Shown here in pieces: positions 3,992-62,513 of a DNA stretch of 64,000 nucleotides (positions within the stretch are counted from its first letter, which is position 1; every line of letters begins with the position of its first letter). The translations under genes were made by a program, and so were the position numbers. Below the pieces are notes generated by a model. It made no database searches. It had not been told where the DNA came from and saw only the letters and a list, made by a program, of their open reading frames with translations. Source of the DNA: Sistotremastrum niveocremeum HHB9708 (Eukaryota > Basidiomycota > Agaricomycetes > Sistotremastrales > Sistotremastraceae). The DNA is taken from contig KV419457.1 in NCBI GenBank assembly GCA_001630475.1, forward strand, positions 38,458-102,457, in the 5' to 3' direction.

Positions 3992-6900
3992 TCACATGGA
4001 CGGGAAGGGAATAGCAGGTTTCATCTTCAAGTCCCGAACCTCGGCCGGGTGGAGACTTTCTAACCAAACCCGATTGTAAAAGTTGGAAGGTAACCCACCA
4101 ATGGCCACGCGCTTGCTTGGTCGAGCGATGATTGGGCGGGAACGTGCACGACCGGGGTTACCTTGTTTCACCTTCCCAGGTTGCTCTTCCATGGACCAGA
4201 AATCCACAGCATCTAGATAATCCAAGAGTTCTGAGGAACGCCAGCGCCGCTCTCTAACCAGATACAGTGCGCGTCCTTGATCATCCTTGCCGCTCTCTTC
4301 CGAGCTCATCCCTTCCTGGCCCAGGTCAATTAGCGCAGACAGAAGCCACCTCCAAGCCTCCGCATTGTTCGGATCGCCGCTGATTTTGCGCGTTACTGCT
4401 CTAACTCTTTTGTTGAAGAACTTTAAGTCACTGTTAGTTCAAGACAATTCACTGACGGGGAGCACTAACTCCAGTTCGCCTCGAATTTGGCCTTTGTTGG
4501 GAGGCTTTTTTGAGTTTCCTGGCTTGAATATCCCGGATCACTGGAGCCATGTCTTCATCCATAAAGTCCGCCAGAAGGGCCTTGGCCTTTGATTGCTTTC
4601 TCCATTCGCGTCGTAACTCATCGAACTTGCTTTTGAAGATGGAAGCAATGGCGGGCTTGTCGTACAGTACATACACGGTAGATATATCTGTGTTGCCTGA
4701 GGCGACGTCATCATGAATTTTGTCGACAAAACGATCCATGATATGACGATTCCATGCACTCTCCTTGATAGTCCTGCTGAAGTCCAGCTTGAAAATTGAG
4801 TCATCCTGTAGCTTGTCCAGCTCCGGTAGTGTTCCAAGGTCCAGTTGCCGTGACCGGTGGCAACCGGCAGTCGCAACCGGACCGTGACTGGACCGCAGTT
4901 GCTGGTTGCCTAGGTTCTTGGAAAATCAGGCAACCGGCAACCGCAGTCATGACCGGTCGTGACCGTGGTCGCAACCGAGGACCCTTAAGGGTCCCCAACC
5001 AGGGTACCCAGAGGGTATTTTGGGTCTCAAATGGGTGTTTATGGTGACATATCTGGTATATATTGGTCTCTATATGCATGTACCACATCATATGAGGTGT
5101 ATATACAGCATATATAATACAATAATGATTAAAATATTAATAAAAGACCAGTTGTGACTGGAAAAAGTGGCCATGACTGGTTGCGCAACTGGTCGCAGCC
5201 GTGACCGGTCGCCGGACCGCAACCGCAGTCGCAGTTGCCAGTCATGCCAGATTGTGGACGGCAACCGGACCGGCAGTTGCCAGTCGCACCCTCCGGGGGT
5301 CAAAAGTCCAGTCGTGACTGGACCTCAGAACCCTAAGCTCCGGGTTCCATCGAGGATTCTGCACCTCATCTAGAGTCGGAGACATTAGTAAGTAAAGCTC
5401 TTCAGCAGGACATTTCTCTGGAAGCCCAAGATGATGAGCCAATTGATTGCGTATCAGGGTCTGGCGCAAGTCAGATCATAAGAATGTATGGACAGAAAAT
5501 ATAACGAAAAACCTGATATTGGGTCATCAAACCAGTTCGCGGGCCCGGGACCCCTCCTCGTCGAAATTGACCTTCAGGCCCCGCTTCAACGTTGTTTCCT
5601 CTCCCGGTATCAGAGCCCTGAGCTCGACGGCTCACGCGCTCCGGTCGATTGAGTTGGCTTTGCAGAGCCTCTTGTACTCCTCGTTCAACAATGGACAAAG
5701 TCGATCCCATGTCCTTCATCTGCTGGAGAATGAGTTGAACGCCGGGTGAGGAAGGGGAGGGATCCTCGGAATTAGGGCTAGGAATCCCGGGATTAGGGGT
5801 AGGAACGTATGAAGAAGGCCGCGAAGAACTCGGCGCAGGAGCGCTATTTTCTTGGATAATTGTGGATGAGGACTGTGGAGATGAACGTGGAGGAAGAGGA
5901 GGATTCGTTGAAGATGCTGAGGGCTGATCCTGTGTCACGACATACCCCATTTCTCGAGCTTGCGCTTGCCAAAGTGCAGCTAGCGGAGCAGGGATACTGT
6001 TGAAAAGAGACGACTGAAGCGCCCATGTCAATAGAATACAAAGAAGTATCAGCATGGATTAACTTACCGATATGGATCTGTCGGTGGAATTGGGACAAAA
6101 AGGAGCGGTGTATGTTCCAGGAAGAGGCACTTGAGGGTACGAGCTATGGTGGAGATTGATGTCACGCCGCTGGGATGATCTTTTAACTAGGTTTCGGGCC
6201 TAGGAAGGATAGGACAACTCACTTGGCCTTTGTCTTGCAACTGAACCCTTTCAGGCTGCGCTTCACTCAGACGGACGTTCCTCGTCCTAGGTGTCGCTGC
6301 GTTCTCGGACAGTCCGGTGTTCATGTGTGAAGGCAAGGGGAAACTGAGCTCTTCGTCCACATTCATGAGATCCACTTGAACCGGCGGCCCCAGCTGACTC
6401 GTGTGAGCTTCCGCAGTTGGTGCTGAGCTCTGAAACATTCCAAGAGGTAGAGGAATCTGGGGAGAAACAGGTATGATCGTTCCAGTATTGAAGTCAATGT
6501 GCGGCAATGCTTGTGTCACAGCTTGGAACGCATCAGGGACGGGTCCAGGTTGGCTGGGCGAAGGATGGGATGAGCGGCGAGTGTGCTGGTCATCTAAAGC
6601 GGAATAATCGGGCGTTGGTGGATCAGGAAAATTCTCCTGCACAGGCATGGAAACTGAAGTGCCAGAGCGAGAAGCACCCTGACGATGAAACCCGGGACTC
6701 AAGCGTTGAGGGAGAGGCAGATAGGGGTGGCCTGAGCTTGGTACAGAGTCTCTGGAGGGAGGATGTAGAAAATTGGGTATGAGGTTAAGAGGTGGCGTTG
6801 GACGACTGGGCTTTGGAGGCTCGGGAAAGGCGTCTGGATGGGGCGTCGTCGCACTCGGAGTGCTCAATTGAGAAACGGATTGACGTGGGGATCTATTCCT

Positions 6901-10313: not shown

Positions 10314-11800
10314 TTTTCTGCGCTAGTGCATCCGTCATTATCGAGACGAACGATCAAAGGCGAGTATCGTTTTCCATTTCAACTGTCTGTCGGCGCGATT
10401 CACTGTTGACATCCTGATTCAGATATGAGGGCCGTTGTTCAGCGCTGCTCATCTGTGGACCATTTGCCAACGCCAGGATAGGAGGGGTCAGAATTCGAGC
10501 ACGTGATTTCATCCTGCCTTATCCTCGACTGCTATGTTCTCTTCTTCCTCGCGCTCACGTCTTCGAGACGTGTCCAGCTGCTGATCATTCTGCCTCGAAA
10601 TCCACCATCTGCACAAACCTTGTCGCCTGGATATGGCATAGCGCCTTGGAGGAGACTTCACGTAGCACGGGCCTGTGCTCAACGAGGCTACTAGTGCAAA
10701 GGATGCATAAAATTGATCATTCCTGCCAAGTGCTTCGCCAAATATCAGCTGATCCATCCATCAACAGGTATACGACCTCCTCCAACTGAAGAAATCTACC
10801 TCCACTCTCCTCTCAGCTTCGCCAAGAATGACCTGCCGCCGAGGACGAATCGCACTGGTGCGTAATCTATGGTCTCCCTCTCTACTATGCTGAACGGATT
10901 CGCAGGTCTATGAATGTCGCGATCCTCGCATCTCGGTATTCTCCTCTCTCGCTTTTGTGGTTGTTTGCGCATCTGAGTGCATGATGTGACCGGCGCAGCA
11001 TATAGTACCGTCATGTCGGTGAAGTAGGGCGTTATATGCATCTGAGTAGCGACTGATGTTTGAATCCAGGCAACACGAACACGGATTAAGGAGTCTCGAT
11101 GATGTAGAGGCAGATCTGAACTTTTACTACCAAGGCGGTGCGTGCCTATCTCAATCATAAAATCGCTTGTTCACCCGATCCATTCTCAGGGTTGGGAAAT
11201 CCGCAACTGCTTCTCTTCCCTGCACACACTCTTGCTCTCGATGACAGGCTTTTGACAAACACCTCCCTATGTAGGGTCCTGGAGGCCGCAAGGACAAGGT
11301 ATGTTCATTCCATTCTATCTTCTTTTCTGTCTGCATAACGGTTCTAAATAGCTGGCTGCAAAGGGCAATTGATAGCTATTACGAGTGATTTGTAGTTGTC
11401 ACCTCTTGTTTCTACGATTGCGTATATACACTGAGCTCGGAAACTACACATTTTAGGGGGGTTCATAAGCACACTTATTGTAGGCTTTAACCCCACATAG
11501 TCCGGGAGTTTGAAGAAAATTGATATTAAAACATACAGAGTAGGATCACTATCCCGATCCAAAACCACTGGAGTTACGAAGTTATCTCCGAACTTATTTT
11601 TCCGCTATTAATATATTCTATTGGCCCGGATCAATCGTGACCTGCGGAGCGGCAGCCTCTGGGAAGGAGAATGGGGTTTTGAGCCAGTAAGCGAGCGCAC
11701 CTCTTGGTTTTAGCTCACATCGGTGTATTGAAAATCCCATGTTGAGAATATTGTCAGGAATATAGGTCTATTGTCGAGTTTGATCGTACAGTGCTAACTG
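10314..11800. other. Intergenic, no supported gene
   Basis: Short frames on both strands with no recognisable domain, no consistent splice structure and no clear repeat. I see nothing in it that I can annotate. Confidence 0.5.
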
Positions 11801-11808
11801 AGCCAAAC

Positions 11809-12108
11809 TAAGGCCTCCAACGAGTATGTACCTGTGGTACTCAGGTACCTGCGTGCGGGTACCTGCCTGTTTTTTTGGGCCAAAATCCCATACCCGTACT
11901 TGCCAAGTACAGGTACCCATGCAGGTATACCTGCCAAAACTGTCTTGTTTTGTGGTTAAATGGTGAAATTAGAACACTTTGTTGGAGGCAGGTACCTGCC
12001 AAAATGTTCAAGGGCCAAACTCATACCCACGCACGCTAATTTTGGCAGGTACCTGCGCAGGTATACCTGTGGGTACCCTTAAATTGACGATACTCGTTGG
12101 AAGCCTTA
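11809..12108. mobile_element. hAT-like MITE, family D copy 1, 300 bp
   Basis: Perfect 8-bp duplications AGCCAAAC at 11801-11808 and 12109-12116. Terminal inverted repeats of 19 bp with one mismatch start taaggcctccaacgagtat. The TAAGG end fits hAT. The interior is dominated by variants of the palindrome CAGGTACCTG and by GTACC. It has the same length as the copy at 58852 but different subterminal bases. Confidence 0.9.
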
Positions 12109-44430: not shown

Positions 44431-45681
44431 ACGAGGAGATTAAAATGATTGTATCATGATGCAGAGCATAAAATTATAACAGCTCCAAAGATATTCATCA
44501 GGCGTGGGCGGGTGGGACAATCAGAAATCTAGAATGAATGGACTTGTCGCCAGAATCGTGCGCAGTATGCAGAGCGCGAGTGGTGGTGGTGGTGGTGGTA
44601 TTAGACGGTACTGGGTCCCCAGTGAGAGGCAAGAAGGAGCGCCTACACCAAACAACTACAAACAGGCGACGACTACTATCGCTCCGTCGCCCGAAGACCA
44701 CTGACTTTCTGGGAAAGTCATCCCGAGTCTAAGGGCAGATCTTAAGGCGCCTTGGCAACTTCTTCCGCCAGTGACCACCACGCAGCTTGAGCCTTCGAAA
44801 TAAGTCGAGAAATCATCATGGAGAAGTTCTGACGTTCAATTTCAAATATATAGAGATCGCCATTTTCCTACATACCCCTTTGCTACCACTAGGATACCTG
44901 ATCCTATGCAGCCTCATCCTCACAATCATTAATATGGCAAGCCGAGCGTTGCATAATCCCCAGGCTCCCCAAAAACACTGATTTTTCGATCACATCTTTT
45001 TCCATAATCTGAACTTTCCCCAGGACATGTTTCACCTTTCAGATTTTCAAGGTTTCAAACTTTTGCTTAAAACTTTTCCGCTCAATGATTCCTCTCATCG
45101 ATCCTTCCCCTTCAACCTTTCCCCTCAAACATTTACACCTTTAACTTTCCCCCATGATCTTTTCCCTCAAACTTTCCCTGCACGATGTTTTCCATTAAAC
45201 ATTTTCTTGATGCATCCTAAACACTACAGACTCTCGCCACCTGCCGACTGTACATATCAATGCTACGCGTCCTGAACGTCCTGAGGCACTGTCTGAGTCC
45301 GAGTACCCAACCAAACATAGACAAATATGATTTCACCAAACAAGGAAGCTCATGATTTGGCCTTGTTTGGACGCTACGTCACCCTGCGGCCAAGGCCGCT
45401 AAGTGCATCCAGCCATAATGTGCAAGACATCCCTTCAAGAAAGGTCCGGTGGTAGTCAGATCGTATTCCTTGTAAATATATGTCTATTCATGCTCGATCC
45501 AATGCCTCTGTTTATGTGCCTATCGCTACGATCTGACCAGAGATCACCGATCAGCGTCTCCTCTTTTTCCAATGTAGTGTCATACCTTTTCTCTTTTGCT
45601 AATTTAGCCATGTCTTGGTTGTCCGAGACAAACAGTGATTCCCCGATTGTATAATTGAATATAACCGAGTGTAAATTGAGC

Positions 45682-45834: not shown

Positions 45835-47517
45835 ATGGAGTTTGAGGAGGATCGCTTCCTCCGTCTCTATACCAGTGCACAAGAGTATTGCACTCGTGCC
45901 GAACACCTGTTGGAGCGCTGTCCGCAGGGCAATCCCTTGGACCGAGAACATGTCGAGAGGCGATTACGTGCCTTCATAACATTGTTTATTGGCCTCCAAG
46001 ACCCCCAAGTACCTCGCCTCAACATTCTTGCCGTCCTCGATCTGCTTGTCAACCTTGTGCGACGACTCAGTAACCTGGCCCCTGTGGATGAAGCCCCTGT
46101 CATTCCAGTGATCCGAAATGGTCGACCAGGACGGCCAAAGAAGGACTTACCTTTGCCTGTCATTCTCGACCTTCATCACAAGGGAAGCACGTGGGAGGAT
46201 ATAGCAGAGGTCTTTGTTGTACATCGCACGACCTTACATCGTCATTTCAAGGATGCTGATGTCGAGACCTTTGAACCGTATTCAGATATTGAGGACGAAG
46301 CACTGGATCACATTGTGGACACGTACTTCGGCAATCATCCAGACGACGGCCAACAATTACTCATGGGTCATCTTCGCAGTCTGGGTCACAAAATCCCTCG
46401 GGATAGACTGCGCGCTAGTGTTCATCGTGTAGATGTTCGAGCACTGCGAGAGTTGTGAGCACTACACCAGTCTAATCCACTTGTCAACTGACATCTTTTC
46501 CCAGCCACCAACTCGTAAACTTTCGTCGAGAATATCAGGTCCGTGGTTCGAATGCACTGTGGCACATGGACGGAAACGAGAAGCTCGTGCGTACAGGGTT
46601 CTACGTGCACGGCTGCGTGGATGGATATTCTCGTAAGATAATCTACGTCGAATGTCGCTACAACAAGTTGGCGCGTACCGTCTGGAATTGCTTCGAGCCG
46701 AAAATCGCCGAGTTTGGATGGCCAAGTCGTGGTTGTACAGACTTTGGCACTGAAAACAATGTCGTCGAGCAGAAAATGATTGAGAATTGGGGTGGCGAGA
46801 ACGGTGGTCATTATGCGTATCTGCGTGGAAAGTGAGTCATATGTTTCTTGCACTGGTTATGTGTACTGAGCCTTACTAAGGTCTGTTCATAACATTCTTA
46901 TTGAGCGCATGTGGGGGGATATAGGCAAGACAACTCTTCGTGTGTTCGCGCGTGTTTTGAGGGAGATGAGAGAGCTCGAGATTTTTGAATTGGAAAATCG
47001 GCTCCATCGACTGGCTATGATTGTGGTGTATCAGCCTCGAATCCAGGCCTCCTTGGACGAGGCGCTACTCACCTGGAATGAACATGGTCTCCGTACTACT
47101 CGCCATCGCTCACCGAATGCGCGGTATTCGCTGTCTCGTCAGGCTGCCATCTTGGGAGGATATTGGGAGGCGGATGCTGGTGATGCTCAGGAGCAGGTAG
47201 CCGCAGATCCAGATTACGGTGTGGACGACGGCGAGGATATGGAGGTAGAGGAACCCTATGAAGACGAAGAGATCAACGGACAGGAGGAGGACGACGAAGA
47301 ACCAGACAACGGGGATGGCGAGGAGGATGAGGCGGCATATAATTTGTTAGAAGAGCAGCTCGCATGGGCGCGGACAGTGATCGGTGGCTTGGATGTTATG
47401 CGGCAGGATAATCGGGTCGGCATGAACGTTTATGTCGAGGTACTGACTATGCTTGAGGCACGCGGGGCAGAGGGGCAGAGTCGCCGATGTAAAATCAGTA
47501 TATTTCGAATGTGTTGA
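45835..47517 (+). CDS. DDE integrase-core transposase, 527 aa
   Basis: Three exons: 45835-46454, 46505-46831 and 46881-47517, introns 50 and 49 bp, all phases matching. The N-terminal 200 residues include a basic GRPGRPKK patch and a helix-turn-helix (GSTWEDIAEVFVVHRTTLHR). The integrase core (rve-type) carries the expected acids: Asp in WHMDGNEKL, Asp in CTDFGTENN, and Glu in HNILIERMWGD across the second intron. The C-terminus is very acidic and ends with a conserved helical piece (LEEQLAWARTVIGGLD). This should cut and join element DNA in the nucleus. It resembles the Agaricomycete integrase-catalytic-domain family. It looks intact. Its stop lies 12 bp from the stop of the opposite-strand partner gene. 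Confidence 0.85.
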
Positions 47518-47529
47518 ATACAATTGCCG

Positions 47530-49927
47530 TTAAATCGAAATGAAAGGGAGAGGGAGTTGGGAAGGCAAGATTGGTGCAGTTTGAAACGCCTTACAGTATG
47601 TTTGACAATAAAATTGCGCCACTTTCTGTTGCATGTGGCGAACAACAAGGAGATTATTTGCCTCTGGTGGATGCACAAGCCGGCTACCAAGTTCACGGGG
47701 AGCATTCGGCCACTTGCAGAGGATCTGGCGCGCTGCTTCGAGTGCGGGGATACTGTATCTCCAGATGAGTGAACCAAGTCCGCAATCGCCGGGTGGTTTG
47801 CTGTCGAGGAACATATTGTCACGCGTGGGGAAAGCGCTCCAAATCCGAAACACCATGGCTTCCCTGACCAACTGTTGCTCCGGTGTGATGGTAAGATCTT
47901 TACTGAAGTGGCGATGTAGTCTCACGAAATCATGACGAAATCCGAGCTCGTCAAGCTCCCATAACACTAATCTTTGACTGACTAACTGTTCTTCGGGCTC
48001 GTCGTGATCGAGGGTGTGGCCGAACCAGGCATAGTCACGAAAGTGCGCAAGGGGAGGCACGCCGCCAGGAAGCAATTCGTGGAAGAGCAACAGTGTGTTT
48101 GCACTTTTTGCTTTCTTTTGGGCTTTTCTTCCAGTGAAAGTGGTGGTAGGGCGATCGAGTGGCCCACGTTCAGGGCTATGCGTGAGATAGTCCCGCCACC
48201 CCTGTACACTGATCGATGCTTCATCGGAATCCATGCCTCGAACGCGAGCCAGCCATGCCGGACGAACATGAAGCCAGTTCATGATCATCCGAACCCTTTT
48301 CATGCGATCGTTGACAAGGAATATGTGGGTTGGGGGGAACAGGTAGAGACGTCCGGGGAGCGGAGTGGGCAGAAGGCGAAGGGTATGACATTGGGCAATC
48401 GCAGCAGACCATTCCGGGACATTCTCGGGCAGTTGGAATTCGAGCGGTCCTGCATCATCGTGAGTGGTCGATGACGAGAGATGTTGGAGCCTTGGGTCTA
48501 GGGCAGGACTTCAGTTCAATATCACAGTAGGCTTTATGTGTATGAACTTACAAGGTTGATATCTGTGTGTGCGTGCAGCAGGTTCGCATTCCTGGCGCTC
48601 ATGGGGACTGGGCAGAACCAAAGCGGTGGGAATAGAATTTCTCGACGAGTTGGGCAGGGTTTGGATGGTATATGCGGAGGAGTCCATGGCAAATCGCGCA
48701 TCGTTCTCGTCGATGGCGTCCATGAAGGTTAAGTCGAAGATATCGAAGTCTCCGAGAGATGGCAGCTCCGAAGAAGTGGGGGCCAGGGTTGGTTGTAGGC
48801 AGGACCGAAATGCAGGCACGTTGTTGTCGGTAACGGGTAATGACTTTAGGTGCCATACGGGTACGCCGTGGTGGAAGAGCTGGGCGACCGTCGAGTCCTC
48901 AGTGGTAAGAGCACCAACGTACCAAGTGGTGGAATCTGGGGAGGGAGAGAATGCGCGGTAGTGGATGTTGATGAACTCGATGTACGCGGCAATTTCCAAT
49001 GCAACGCGCTGGATCTGACCCCACAAAATGCATAGCTGCAGGTGGGTAGAATGTTCAGGTAGGAGGAGAATTCTGGAATGGGCGAATTTGATGCGCTGGT
49101 AAAATCGGCGCAGCTGATTACGAGGACATGGTCCGTCCACAAGACCCGCAACGTATCGTGCCTGGCCGCAGAGCATCTCAGTCTGCATGCCTACGAGTCC
49201 GTGCGCTCGATCGGTTAGCAGCCTTCGGTTTGACGAACGCGACTGCAGGGGTTCAGAGACCAGATCTAAGGGTTCCAGGGATCGCCAAAGAAAGGTATAT
49301 TGGCGATACTCCGGATGTAACAGAGTCGGCGTATATGGGAGATGAGGATAGTCCGTCGAATATACTTGAGGCTGGATTCCGGGATCGGCGTAGCCGTAGC
49401 GGCTAGTGTTTGCAAGTCAGGTCACTTAACCGCCAAATAACTGCGACTTAGCCGTAACTTAACCATTTGTGACCTAACCATGGTTAATGGTCATGGCTCA
49501 GAGCTGGTGGTCAAGTCACAGTCATGGACCTCCCCGGAATCCTTGACCGCTTGCCTTGACCAACATGGGTAGATCCTTGTCCACAGCCTTCCCCAGCCCT
49601 TCTGGTGTGTTCTGATTGTCATATACATCATATATGAGGTCCAACAACCTAGATTAAGTAGTAAAAAGTGGATATTTATGACTTTTTTGAGGTCATAACC
49701 GCATTAACCGGTCAAAGTCAGGTCATGGTCACCCAATTTTGGCTTAACCATGACCGTTGGCGGTTATAGGTTACAGCAAAACCCATTAACCATAACCGCG
49801 GTTTGGTTACGGTTAGGGCCTCCGAGGGGCCCATAACCTAACTTAACCCGACTTTCAAACACTAGTAGCGGCCATCAGATCGCATCTGGAGAGAGTAGGA
49901 GGCGGAGAGGTGATAATAATGAGTCAT
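47530..49927 (-). pseudogene. Partner gene of the integrase element, interrupted by a hAT-like MITE
   Basis: Two exons on the minus strand: 49927-48552 (containing the MITE at 49404-49864) and 48497-47530, intron 54 bp. Without the MITE and one 8-bp duplication the total is 624 codons plus stop, starting MTHYYHLSASYSLQ. Landmarks: RLLTDRAHGLVGMQTEMLCG, ALEIAAYIEFINIHYRAFSP, LFHHGVPVWHLKS, a region that is Ser/acidic, NVPEWSAAIAQCHTLRLLP, MIMNWLHVRPAWLARV, QGWRDYLT, and VLWELDELGFRHDFVRLHR. I recognise this as a protein found with the integrase family in Agaricomycetes but know no function. No catalytic motif is evident. The present allele would end inside the MITE; the 534 codons downstream of ATG 49188 remain open and could still be used if a new promoter exists. 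Confidence 0.7.
49404..49864. mobile_element. hAT-like MITE, family A copy 1, 461 bp
   Basis: Perfect 8-bp duplications GTAGCGGC at 49396-49403 and 49865-49872. Ends tagtgtttgcaagtc and, from the right inward, tagtgtttgaaagtc. The interior is built of aaccgt/ggttaa motifs, including palindromic aaccatggtt. No coding capacity. Inserted in exon 1 of the integrase partner gene. Confidence 0.93.
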
Positions 49928-52531
49928 GTTGGGTGAGGATATCACCGTATGAGGGGGCACTTGAGAAATCTCGGCCCTCGCGATATCTCGGGGAGCTGAT
50001 GAGGTAGACAGTGGCCATTAGGTTCTGTACTGTCAAACAGAGCACGAATGCGATCAATACTGACCTGAGAACATCGTGCCAGGGTCATTCATGAAGGCGT
50101 CGATCGCTCGATCGCAGAGAATGCCCTGAGAATTTATCAGGAAATCCGAGGGTGGTAGCGCGGGAAGATCCAAGGACAGGATCTTCAGCACGAAAACCAG
50201 GTCTCTGCCAGCTCAATCCAAATGCAGGATTGCCCTGGGTCAGGGAGAGAGAGATGCGGCAGGGGGGAGGCCGTCGTTCGCGAAAGTCGATCGATATAGG
50301 CCCGCTCGATCGATCGTTTCGGCGCGGGAGCAAAAAACTGCGGAGGCTGAAAGCAAGTTAACACGTCGCAGAAAGAGACACGGATAAGGAATGCCTTGCC
50401 TGTCAGTACGTTCTGGGCGAGACGGCCGGATGTCGTCGTGAAATTGAGGAGAGCACCTTGCAGGCGGAGTTTTGATTCCGTCACGCCAATGAGTGACTCA
50501 CGTCGCGCGGTGCACGGGATCAAATCCACGTGACTACCGTGCTTTTGTGACTGAAATGCATAAGGGGAGACATTCAATCGTAACGCGCGAGCGCTGTGTC
50601 CCCTACTCTACAATGTCCCTTCTCCATCAGGTAAAGATATCGGATTGAACCAGGTACAGAGAAGTGACATTGATTCAAATGAAGCACGATAATAAATTGT
50701 GATCACTTGAGACAGAGTTCAATAAATCATCAGGTATCGTCGGCTTCAATGTTTTCATGTTCCTTACTTTTTCGAGTGGTCTTCTCCTTTTTCCTGGGCC
50801 AGAACCAGCAAAAGCTAATGAGGTAGATGCAGCAACTGACTGTCGCCCCTTTGTCATAGCCGACCCAACATTTTTCGTCTCAGACTCGTCACCAGAGTTC
50901 GTGAATCGTGAGGGCCTTCAGCGACATCGCTTGTTTCGAAGGAGTGAAAGGATGGGGTTCCAAGAGCTTCAAGCATTCCGGCGAGAATAGGTATGTAGCC
51001 TTGAGTGCGTGCATAGCGACCATGAATATGGCAGAGTAAAATTGCTGAGCTCGGCACGACAGACTACGAGACTCGGCAACGGAAAGAAATTGCTTTGCAT
51101 AGCGGTGTCTAGATTTACCCCATAAGTTGACCAAATACCATGACAGACTTCCCAGCGGGCATTTCTCCACGGCATCGTATTGGATTGACGACGCATTGCT
51201 CTGCCATCGGTTGCAGGCATTCGAGGGTTTTGTTTGCCCGATCATGAGGGGAAACTATAGAGTTCATACGTTGATGCTCAGAAAGAAAGTGATGTTGTAT
51301 CAGAGCCTATAGCGATATCGATAAGAGCGCAACGCGCTCAACACTCTGAGATTGGGCCCTTGAAGGAATGCCAAAGACAACCCCCGGAGGAATCACTGTG
51401 TAGCGTCGGATATGAGTCTTGATGTCAATGCTGAGTGTTTCTGGAATATCATGTGTATACGCAACAACAATATCCCTACCAGAAGATGTCGAGGGATCTC
51501 GATGAACGCAACAAAGGGACCGTCAATTTGCTTTCGTCTGAGCAGAGCTTGTAGGGGCCAGAGCTCTCACACGGACAGCATCCGTGACAAACGATCCTCA
51601 ACAGGGATACATTGTGAGCTCTCCCAACTTTGTCTGCTCTGGTACGCCGTGCGCGAGTGGTAAAGGGGTATCCTGTGATTCTCGTCACCATAAGAATTGA
51701 AGTACACTTCAAGTTGATGCCACTCAAGCTTGCAGCATCCGCTCTCTGCGCTCTCGGAGCATTGGATGGCACAATATCAGCGATAGGACAGGATTTTGAC
51801 TTTTTACGAGTAAGAGAATCCTTCACTCTTGGAAGATCCTGGCGATTTAAGCCGATAACATCGGCGGCTGTCCGACACGCCTCGATTATTCAAGGACAAT
51901 GTCAAGATCGACCCATTTTATGTTCTCTCTTCAAATTTTGACAGTCAGGACGGACAGTTGACATGAAACTGTGCCTGTCTGACCTTGAGCAAACAATATT
52001 CCGCAAAGATGAAGACTTATCGGTTGACCACAGGGTCCCGAGCGGCTGAGCGCCGCGGTTAGGGAGGAGTTCACGACCACGTGATCGCATCTGGCTTTCT
52101 TCTCGCCAGCCATCATCGTCCCTCGAACCACCCTCTTGAGCGAACGCCGTCTCTACATTCTTGTAGTCAAGGGATCCACAAGACCTTCGACTCTTCTCTT
52201 GTCCTCATCTTTCCAAAATGCCCAGAGGTCGTTGAACTGGGATGGGTAGAAGTCGTGGCCGCGCTCGGCGTACCATGGCCTCGTCGTCGAAAAATCAGGT
52301 ATGTCAGAACATATGCACAGGACAGATCTCATGTCATCATTCTCAGGATTTATGTACAGAGCACATGCTCTGCGGAAACGATACCGCGGAGTTAAGAAGC
52401 CAACTAGTGTCGAGCTCACCACCATGTATGCAGGAGAAGACGTTGTATCGCGAAGGTGAGACTATATGCTTTCGGATCTTTTCCGCTTTGATCACCTCCA
52501 TGTCTCTGCCCCATTGAGAAGATCACTGTAT
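49928..52531. other. Non-coding or unrecognised sequence
   Basis: Should contain the right end and promoter of the two-gene element near 49928-50600, but no matching terminal repeat was found. A minus-strand frame at 52425-52153 (FSTTRPWYAERGHDFYPSQF, LWAFWKDEDKRR) looks protein-like and may be an exon of an unrecognised gene. 51060-52080 shows only shadow frames. Confidence 0.35.
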
Positions 52532-52539
52532 GGATTACA

Positions 52540-53000
52540 TAGTGTTTGCAAGTCAGGTCACTTAACCGCCAAATAACTGCGACTTAGCCGTAACTTAACC
52601 ATTTGTGACCTAACCATGGTTAATGGTCATGGCTCAGAGCTAGTGGTCAAGTCACAGTCATGGACCTCCCCGGAATCCTTGACCGCTTGCCTTGACCAAC
52701 ATGGGTAGATCCTTGTCTACAGCCTTCCCCAGGCCTTCTGGTGTGTTCTGCTTGTCATATACATCATATATGACGACCAATAACCTAGATTAAGTAGTAA
52801 AAAGTGGAGATTTATGACTTTTTTGAGGTCATAACCGCATTAACCGGTCAAAGTCAAGTCATGGTCACCCAATTTTGGCTTAACCGTGACCGTTGGCGGT
52901 TATAGGTTACAGCAAAACCCATTAACCATAACCGCGGTTTGGTTACGGTTAGGGCCTCCGAGGGGCCCATAACCTAACTTAACCCGACTTTCAAACACTA
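52540..53000. mobile_element. hAT-like MITE, family A copy 2, 461 bp
   Basis: Perfect 8-bp duplications GGATTACA at 52532-52539 and 53001-53008. Same length and orientation as copy 1 and about ten differences by eye, so roughly 98% identical. Confidence 0.93.
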
Positions 53001-62237: not shown

Positions 62238-62337
62238 ACTTCAGAAAAAATTAGACCTATTAATTGTACTTTTGAGTACTTTTTAGTGCTCCTGAGCGCT
62301 CAAAAGTACAATTAGTAGGTCTAATTTTTTCAGAAGT
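62238..62337. repeat. Long hairpin, 39-bp arms
   Basis: Arms 62238-62276 and about 62299-62337 are complementary with two mismatches around a 22-bp loop. It lies inside the family B fragment. Confidence 0.85.
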
Positions 62338-62434
62338 AGTCACAGGCAAAAATGGAAAAAGTCCATTTGTGACTGGACTTTCAGACCCTAGATGAAGAGT
62401 TTAACCAGTCACAATCCCACCACAACCTGTGCTT

Positions 62435-62513
62435 GCCTGCAGTCACGTAGATTGGACTTTGGAACTCTATTTTAGAAGAGAGTTCCAAAGTACAATCTGT
62501 GTGACTGTAGGGC
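62435..62513. repeat. Second hairpin, 34-bp imperfect arms
   Basis: Arms 62435-62468 and 62479-62513 pair at about 30 positions around a 10-bp loop. It lies just outside the right end of the family B fragment. Confidence 0.75.

Follow-up and report, generated by a model that had tools for sequence, protein, structure and literature searches.

The stretch of Sistotremastrum niveocremeum HHB9708 DNA analysed here (contig C64, 38458 bp–102457 bp), which we refer to in its whole length of 64000 bp as the window, extends to the end of its contig in a genome of 34.7 Mb and 111 contigs. It encodes an integrase-like gene and, converging on it from the opposite strand, a second long gene which we have designated the partner gene. 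This arrangement raises the question of whether the two genes form a mobile element by themselves or belong to something larger, and what the partner does there. Our analysis indicates that the pair probably makes up the left half of a large IS3EU-superfamily transposon that would move by cut and paste, and that the partner is a selected accessory, most likely one with a role on the host side.

The convergent gene pair

The two genes are located in the window as follows.

45835–47517, plus strand: IS3EU-type DDE integrase/transposase gene, with exons at 45835–46454, 46505–46831 and 46881–47517
47530–49927, minus strand: convergent partner gene, interrupted, with coding pieces at 47530–48497, 48552–49403 and 49865–49927

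The integrase gene was intact, its introns of 50 and 49 nt leaving a product of 527 amino acids with the catalytic residues D229, D286 and E324; 37 residues separate the last two. The exon 2 and exon 3 frames matched the Pfam family rva_4 (PF24764) at 1.4e-19 and 4.9e-12 respectively, while the general rve family reached only 0.04 on exon 2. A PDB search with exon 2 returned nothing at an E value of 1 and no relative was found in viral contigs searched with an integrase exon. The partner gene was encoded by two long minus-strand frames (47530–48510 and 48511–49416) joined across an intron at 48498–48551, the splice sites of which were assigned by eye; the start codon at 49927 is putative and was taken from the first-pass annotation of this DNA. 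That annotation had described an intact integrase and an opposite-strand gene with stop codons 12 bases apart, and splicing, the DDE residues and the reading frames confirmed the description.

Termini, target site duplications and extent of the element

Alignment of the window with a related copy of the pair, C4, showed that homology between the two begins abruptly at 44933 bp, and the following features were defined around the pair.

44933–44956, plus strand: left terminal inverted repeat (TIR), TATGGCAAGCCGAGCGTTGCATAA, the outer end of the element, a 24-mer common to C4 and C26
44957–45532, plus strand: subterminal region with inward TTWCCC repeats (repeat family D1), putative transposase binding sites
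50446–50568, no strand assigned: last conserved block, 80% to C4, with matching sequence ending at ~50568

The integrase-side ends of C4 and C26 carried the same 24-mer, in which one position was either C or G, and those of C30, C16 and C13 had 4, 5 and 6 mismatches to it; each of the six copies compared thus had a related end upstream of its integrase. When the 24-mer pattern was searched for across the genome at up to 3 mismatches it gave 7 matches, compared with 0 in the control, and these included inverted ends far beyond the pair. The far end of C30 was located in a fetched stretch and the other far ends by this pattern search. Both ends were found in four copies, listed here with their target site duplications (TSDs).

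C4, 789306–800659: complete copy of 11354 bp, TSD CTCGAA
C26, 170918–182535: complete copy of 11618 bp, TSD CACACA
C16, 675397–693110: complete copy of 17714 bp, TSD CTCCTG
C30, 139023–155279: complete copy of 16257 bp, TSD CAGGAC

The TSD was a perfect 6-bp repeat in 4/4 of these copies and all four had TATG..CATA termini. Within the first 25 bases, the two ends of a copy matched each other at 22 (C4), 23 (C26), 21 (C16) and 22 (C30) positions. The first-pass annotation had looked to the alignment of flanks for terminal repeats and target duplications, and comparison of copies together with the pattern search yielded the TIRs and 6-bp TSDs of the four copies. The bounds it gave to the element, 45835–49927, cover the genes only, as the TIR-to-TIR spans measure 11.4–17.7 kb and include a third gene. 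The pair as an entire element was therefore rejected on the evidence of the TIRs, the TSDs and the third gene. Also rejected were TIRs lying close around the pair, for which flank comparisons gave only matches of 9–14 bases.

The TTWCCC motif occurred 5 times in forward and 0 times in reverse orientation between 44933 bp and 45532 bp, compared with a mean of 0.8 and a maximum of 4 in 500 shuffles, and 0 forward occurrences were found in the 600 bases just outside the left end. The five ends of the window copy, C4 and C26 contained 5–13 such motifs, compared with shuffle means of ~1 and maxima of 4–6. Elsewhere in the genome, C8:877615-878291 was identified as a right-end remnant of the element (678 bp, 94% to C4).

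The third gene and the layout of the element

A multi-exon third gene, on the same strand as the partner, lies in the region that separates the partner from the far end of the element. With a 269 amino acid frame from C4 as query, matches were limited to C4, C26, C30, C13 and C16 (the weakest being C16, E 0.006), and a 135 amino acid third-gene frame found C4, C26, C13 and C16; in C30 both third-gene regions were recovered by local alignment. The gene was found only in the integrase clade to which the pair belongs. Its product has a Cys-rich putative zinc motif at the N-terminus followed by an acidic middle. The Cys motif, C-x4-C ... C ... C-x2-C-x-C-x4-H, was present in 4/4 copies read (C4, C26, C13 and C30), of which only C13 is a new test of it since the pattern was written after aligning C4, C26 and C30. 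A PDB search with a third-gene profile gave no match at an E value of 1.

Taken together, the copies define an element of 11–18 kb that runs from a TIR through the inward-reading integrase, the partner on the opposite strand converging with it and the third gene on the partner's strand to the second TIR, and that makes 6-bp target duplications. We infer cut-and-paste transposition and a role for each protein: the DDE protein would be the transposase, with its sites of action in the TIRs and perhaps also in the subterminal TTWCCC repeats, the third protein would probably be a DNA-binding cofactor, and the partner would act in trans on the host side, either by protecting the element from silencing or by controlling its expression, rather than being a catalytic or target-choosing part.

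An integrase, TIRs, 6-bp TSDs and a length above 10 kb would also be expected of a Polinton/Maverick, that is, of a virus-like transposon from which most genes have been lost. We consider this very improbable, because the integrase matched rva_4 and gave only the marginal rve score, the termini were of the IS3EU type and no polymerase, protease, ATPase or capsid family passed the cut-off among 10 frames of C4 and C26. No other Pfam family passed it in these frames either, those of the third gene included.

Pairing of the integrase and the partner across the genome

The genome was searched for both genes, and the counts given here are lower bounds. The rva_4 search gave 20 clear integrase loci; weak loci on C18, C38 and C5 (E 0.001–0.002) were excluded, that on C5 reaching the cut-off together with its neighbours. 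Of 18 partner loci found, 17 were analysed, C88 having been dropped as it adjoins a stretch that is open in all frames and probably masked. Five loci had the tail-to-tail pair, with 12 (window, C64), 37 (C4), 31 (C26), 136 (C13) and 149 (C16) bases between the stop codons. This corresponds to 5/20 clear integrase loci compared with 0.04 expected within 2 kb, so that the convergent order, which the first-pass annotation had proposed to compare with chance, exceeds it within the window's own genome.

In a maximum-likelihood tree of the 20 integrases, seven (C6, C26, C30, C13, C16, C4 and C64) formed a clade with 100/100 support. The pair was found in 5/7 members of this clade and beside 0/13 of the other integrases (Fisher p 0.0014, which is a guide only because related copies are not independent). 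The integrase tree joined C13 with C16 and C4 with C64; the partner tree likewise joined C13 with C16, and grouped C64, C4 and C26. Outside the C26 element, at a distance of ~4 kb, a second rva_4 integrase belonging to the other large clade was located (C26:186350-187348).

The complete copy C30 had no partner in the 1.1 kb past its integrase, nor was one detected there by two genome-wide searches. At the usual place of the partner it has an open minus-strand frame of at least 258 amino acids (C30:141705-142478) that did not match the partner profile. In addition, 12/17 analysed partner loci lacked a convergent rva_4 integrase. The pairing foreseen in the first-pass annotation therefore recurs within one clade but is not general, as C30 shows no partner where one is expected and most partner loci have no convergent integrase. 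Similarly, the two-component element that it proposed stands in so far as the genes travel together, in 5/7 clade members and with low ratios of nonsynonymous to synonymous substitution rates (dN/dS), but the pair is not the whole element.

These results bear on whether the partner could be an indispensable component of the machinery for transposition, serving in TIR binding, synapsis or target choice, which is the main rival to our reading. The tight convergent packing, with 12–149 bases between stops in 5/5 pairs, the partly matching trees and the low dN/dS all fit such a role. It is nevertheless unlikely in our view, given that 13/20 integrases had no adjacent partner match, that the complete copy C30 had none in the 1.1 kb past its integrase and that the partner family also occurs near an unrelated type of transposase.

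Selection on the pair and the partner protein family

Between the window and C4 (Nei-Gojobori method), integrase exon 1 had a dN/dS of 0.044 (dS 0.54), and the partner gave 0.10 (dS 0.31) for exon 2 and 0.16 (dS 0.63) for exon 1. Comparing C26 with C4 gave no ratio, as silent sites were saturated. Both the integrase and the partner have been maintained by selection during some or all of the period since the window and C4 copies split.

Partner proteins were aligned from 15 family members, C16 and C20 being excluded (alignment A1). NWL..R..W and WEL.EL..F were among the best-conserved stretches, and 13 positions were invariant (W at five, P, F and L at two each, R and E at one each). The partner motifs reported in the first-pass annotation are present in the window, and the stretch containing NWL..R..W is among those best kept by the 15 members. 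Its statement that the partner has no recognisable catalytic motif also held: no catalytic residue set was visible among the 13 invariant positions and database searches gave no meaningful match. In Pfam, no family passed the cut-off for the window partner, a piece of which matched DUF7255 at 0.2, nor for any of the 15 members, one of which matched PTPS at 0.088, and five longer pieces from other family members had no match at an E value of 1. The best match of the partner profile in PDB (E 0.64) was to a capsid protein and was taken as chance. Plasmids and viral contigs searched with partner exon 2 contained no relatives, and no description of the partner was found among the papers listed for rva_4/PF24764, IS3EU, KDZ transposons (see below) and basidiomycete integrase elements; those listed for rva_4/PF24764 were all unrelated.

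The partner tree, calculated without C20 as a near copy of C33, contained one group (100/100) made up of the five element-borne copies with C6, C12, C73 and C55, and a second (100/99) made up of C33, C36b and C71. The stand-alone partner genes C73:58357-61400 and C55:114518-117724 shared ~3 kb of homology, which stopped 12 bases past the last sense codon of the partner, and no integrase or third-gene match was listed there. An alpha-kinase match was located 2.6 kb upstream of the stand-alone partner-family gene on C55, on the same strand (C55:112864-117712).

A family with such members could be one of host genes that are captured by, or lie near, transposons, in which case the pairing within the clade would go back to one old capture and the partner would be a passenger of no use to the element. 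The 12/17 partner loci lacking a convergent rva_4 integrase are in keeping with this, as are the long frames of C73, C55 and C12, which are stand-alone genes. The low dN/dS measured between two copies carried by elements argues against a functionless passenger, and the near copies C20 and C33, each with a CxC2-like frame next to it, point to a mobile context there as well. On balance we regard a captured host gene as quite unlikely.

A host-side role for the partner is favoured instead because related transposases appear to manage without a partner, because the complete copy C30 shows none where it is expected and because relatives of the partner sit near an unrelated transposase.

Several observations weigh against our reading of an IS3EU transposon with a selected, host-side partner. 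As regards the element, the TSD of C26, CACACA, has a CA-rich flank around it and carries little weight by itself. No far TIR was located for C13 between 329501 bp and 334136 bp (up to 7 mismatches), nor by a pattern search, the control run of which gave 1 match, and TTWCCC was unenriched (1–3) in the four ends read of C30, C16 and C13. The IS3EU placement was made from Pfam family, termini and TSD length and not from a tree with reference proteins. As regards the pair, the five pair-bearing integrases do not form a supported subclade (20/11), so that loss in C30 and separate gain are both possible; loss of the partner from C30 is not proven, as 142481 bp–149500 bp of C30 lay outside the stretch read. 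C6 carries the two genes on one strand and at a distance of 6.8 kb, and thus not as a tight pair. The partner is broken in 2/5 pairs, in the window by the insertion described below and in C16 by repeats that have inserted and by stops; all dN/dS values come from the single pair of window and C4; and single-sequence fold prediction of the partner was uninformative (mean pLDDT 32).

The window copy as a decayed remnant

The copy in the window is a decayed remnant, in which the right half was not found and the partner gene is interrupted by the following insertion.

49404–49864, no strand assigned: hAT-like miniature inverted-repeat transposable element (MITE) in the partner gene, 461 bp, with TAGTG..CACTA ends and the 8-bp TSD GTAGCGGC

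The first-pass annotation had already discounted a MITE from the second gene, and its ends, its TSD and an empty site in C4 show that it is real. Window positions 49403 and 49865 aligned to abutting C4 sequence (796206 and 796213) with an 8-base overlap, from which it follows that the MITE interrupted the partner gene of the window. A second copy was found in the window at 52540–53000 and a third at C62:78742-79202; the latter had 97.2% identity to 49404–49864 and 98.0% to 52540–53000. All three copies had their own, differing 8-bp TSDs, the flanks being read by eye.

No right TIR was found in the window at a suitable position with up to 8 mismatches, and the third gene was not found there by blastn or tblastn. 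The one minus-strand match to the right of the element, a candidate right TIR at 52736 (8 mismatches), was rejected as it lies inside the second MITE copy, and a nested long-terminal-repeat element to the right of 50568 was rejected as the sequence between 50300 bp and 64000 bp contained no repeat reaching 60 bases. The right half may have been deleted, or an insertion may have placed it past the end of the contig. The repeats that disrupt the C16 partner recur elsewhere in the window. Further repeats, at 4827–5338, 11800–12108 and 62239–62469 of the window, were shared with loci on C26, C8, C16, C25 and C46 at up to 99% identity.

Partner relatives near KDZ transposases

KDZ denotes the Kyakuja/Dileera/Zisupton transposons, and CxC2 is a KDZ-associated domain. 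Partner-family genes were located 1.6 kb (C20) and 3.0 kb (C36, the C36b gene) from a KDZ transposase, which is unrelated to the rva_4 integrase. Thus 2/12 partner loci without a convergent integrase lay within 5 kb of one of 12 KDZ loci; the chance of this is ~0.0008 if loci are evenly spread, and the true chance is higher because transposons cluster. At C36:55485-61292 the partner-family protein was encoded in a single frame of 711 amino acids, with the KDZ transposase 3 kb off on the opposite strand. C20:56133-60473 and C33:125789-129212 appeared to be dispersed units in which a partner-family gene is followed by a CxC2-like frame. They lie on different contigs and shared 95.5% identity over 3.7 kb of DNA. 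The CxC2 matches adjoining C20 (0.0043) and C33 (0.00046) both miss the Pfam cut-off, and no KDZ match was listed near C33 or C71.

By analogy with TET/JBP, the partner may represent an undescribed family of fungal transposon helpers common to IS3EU and KDZ, acquired by various elements because it would defeat a common host control, though by non-enzymatic means, a suggestion that we put forward tentatively. If it is true that the partner rides with both IS3EU and KDZ, it would be a candidate for a helper that transposons employ generally to counter the genome defence of fungi.

Comparison with IS3EU and other known systems

In excerpts of the respective sources, IS3EU/GingerRoot elements are described as having TA..TA termini, usually 6-bp TSDs and an integrase-like DDE core (PMC10045372), and TET-bearing IS3EU elements of rust fungi as having TAYGG..CCRTA ends, 6-bp TSDs and TIRs of more than 30 bp (PMC12730594). 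The elements described here resemble the latter in having 6-bp TSDs and TATGG..CCATA in 7/8 ends of the complete copies, whereas their TIRs match at 23–27 of the first 30 bases. Membership of IS3EU is well supported by this anatomy, that is by Pfam family, termini and TSD length as read from sequence, and rva_4 would appear to be the IS3EU transposase family. The same superfamily has already been reported from a basidiomycete mushroom, Ganoderma leucocontextum, in an annotation that, in the part available, gives repeat counts and not gene content (PMC8955403).

In gene content the elements differ from those of rusts. There, TET/JBP is flanked by the transposase on one side and on the other by an alpha-kinase gene of opposite orientation (PMC12730594); here, what was found instead is the uncharacterised partner together with a third protein that is Cys-rich, although an accessory gene lies on the strand opposite the transposase in both. 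None of the 11 alpha-kinase matches in the genome was inside the spans of C4, C26, C16 and C30 or near the C13 and window copies. No TET domain was found in the frames scanned, which left parts of C16 and C30 unscanned, and no genome-wide TET search was made. At C18:478156-482401 and C5:714571-718821 an alpha-kinase match lay 3.8 kb from a weak rva_4 match on the opposite strand; this genome may thus also harbour an IS3EU lineage of the rust type.

TET/JBP is reported to occur with unrelated transposases in fungi and has been proposed to counter silencing (excerpt of PMC12730594). The partner, with relatives near KDZ transposases, offers a parallel that is an analogy, as it has no detectable enzyme domain. 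TSDs of 8 bp are reported for Zisupton (PMC12730594) and KDZ1 (PMC12810828). The accessory genes of the clade described here are not mentioned in the excerpted text of PMC10045372 on IS3EU/GingerRoot in general. What had been an unexplained gene pair is now part of a mobile element with defined bounds and a layout open to testing, and two uncharacterised accessory proteins are added to a superfamily that carries alpha-kinase and TET/JBP passengers in rust fungi.

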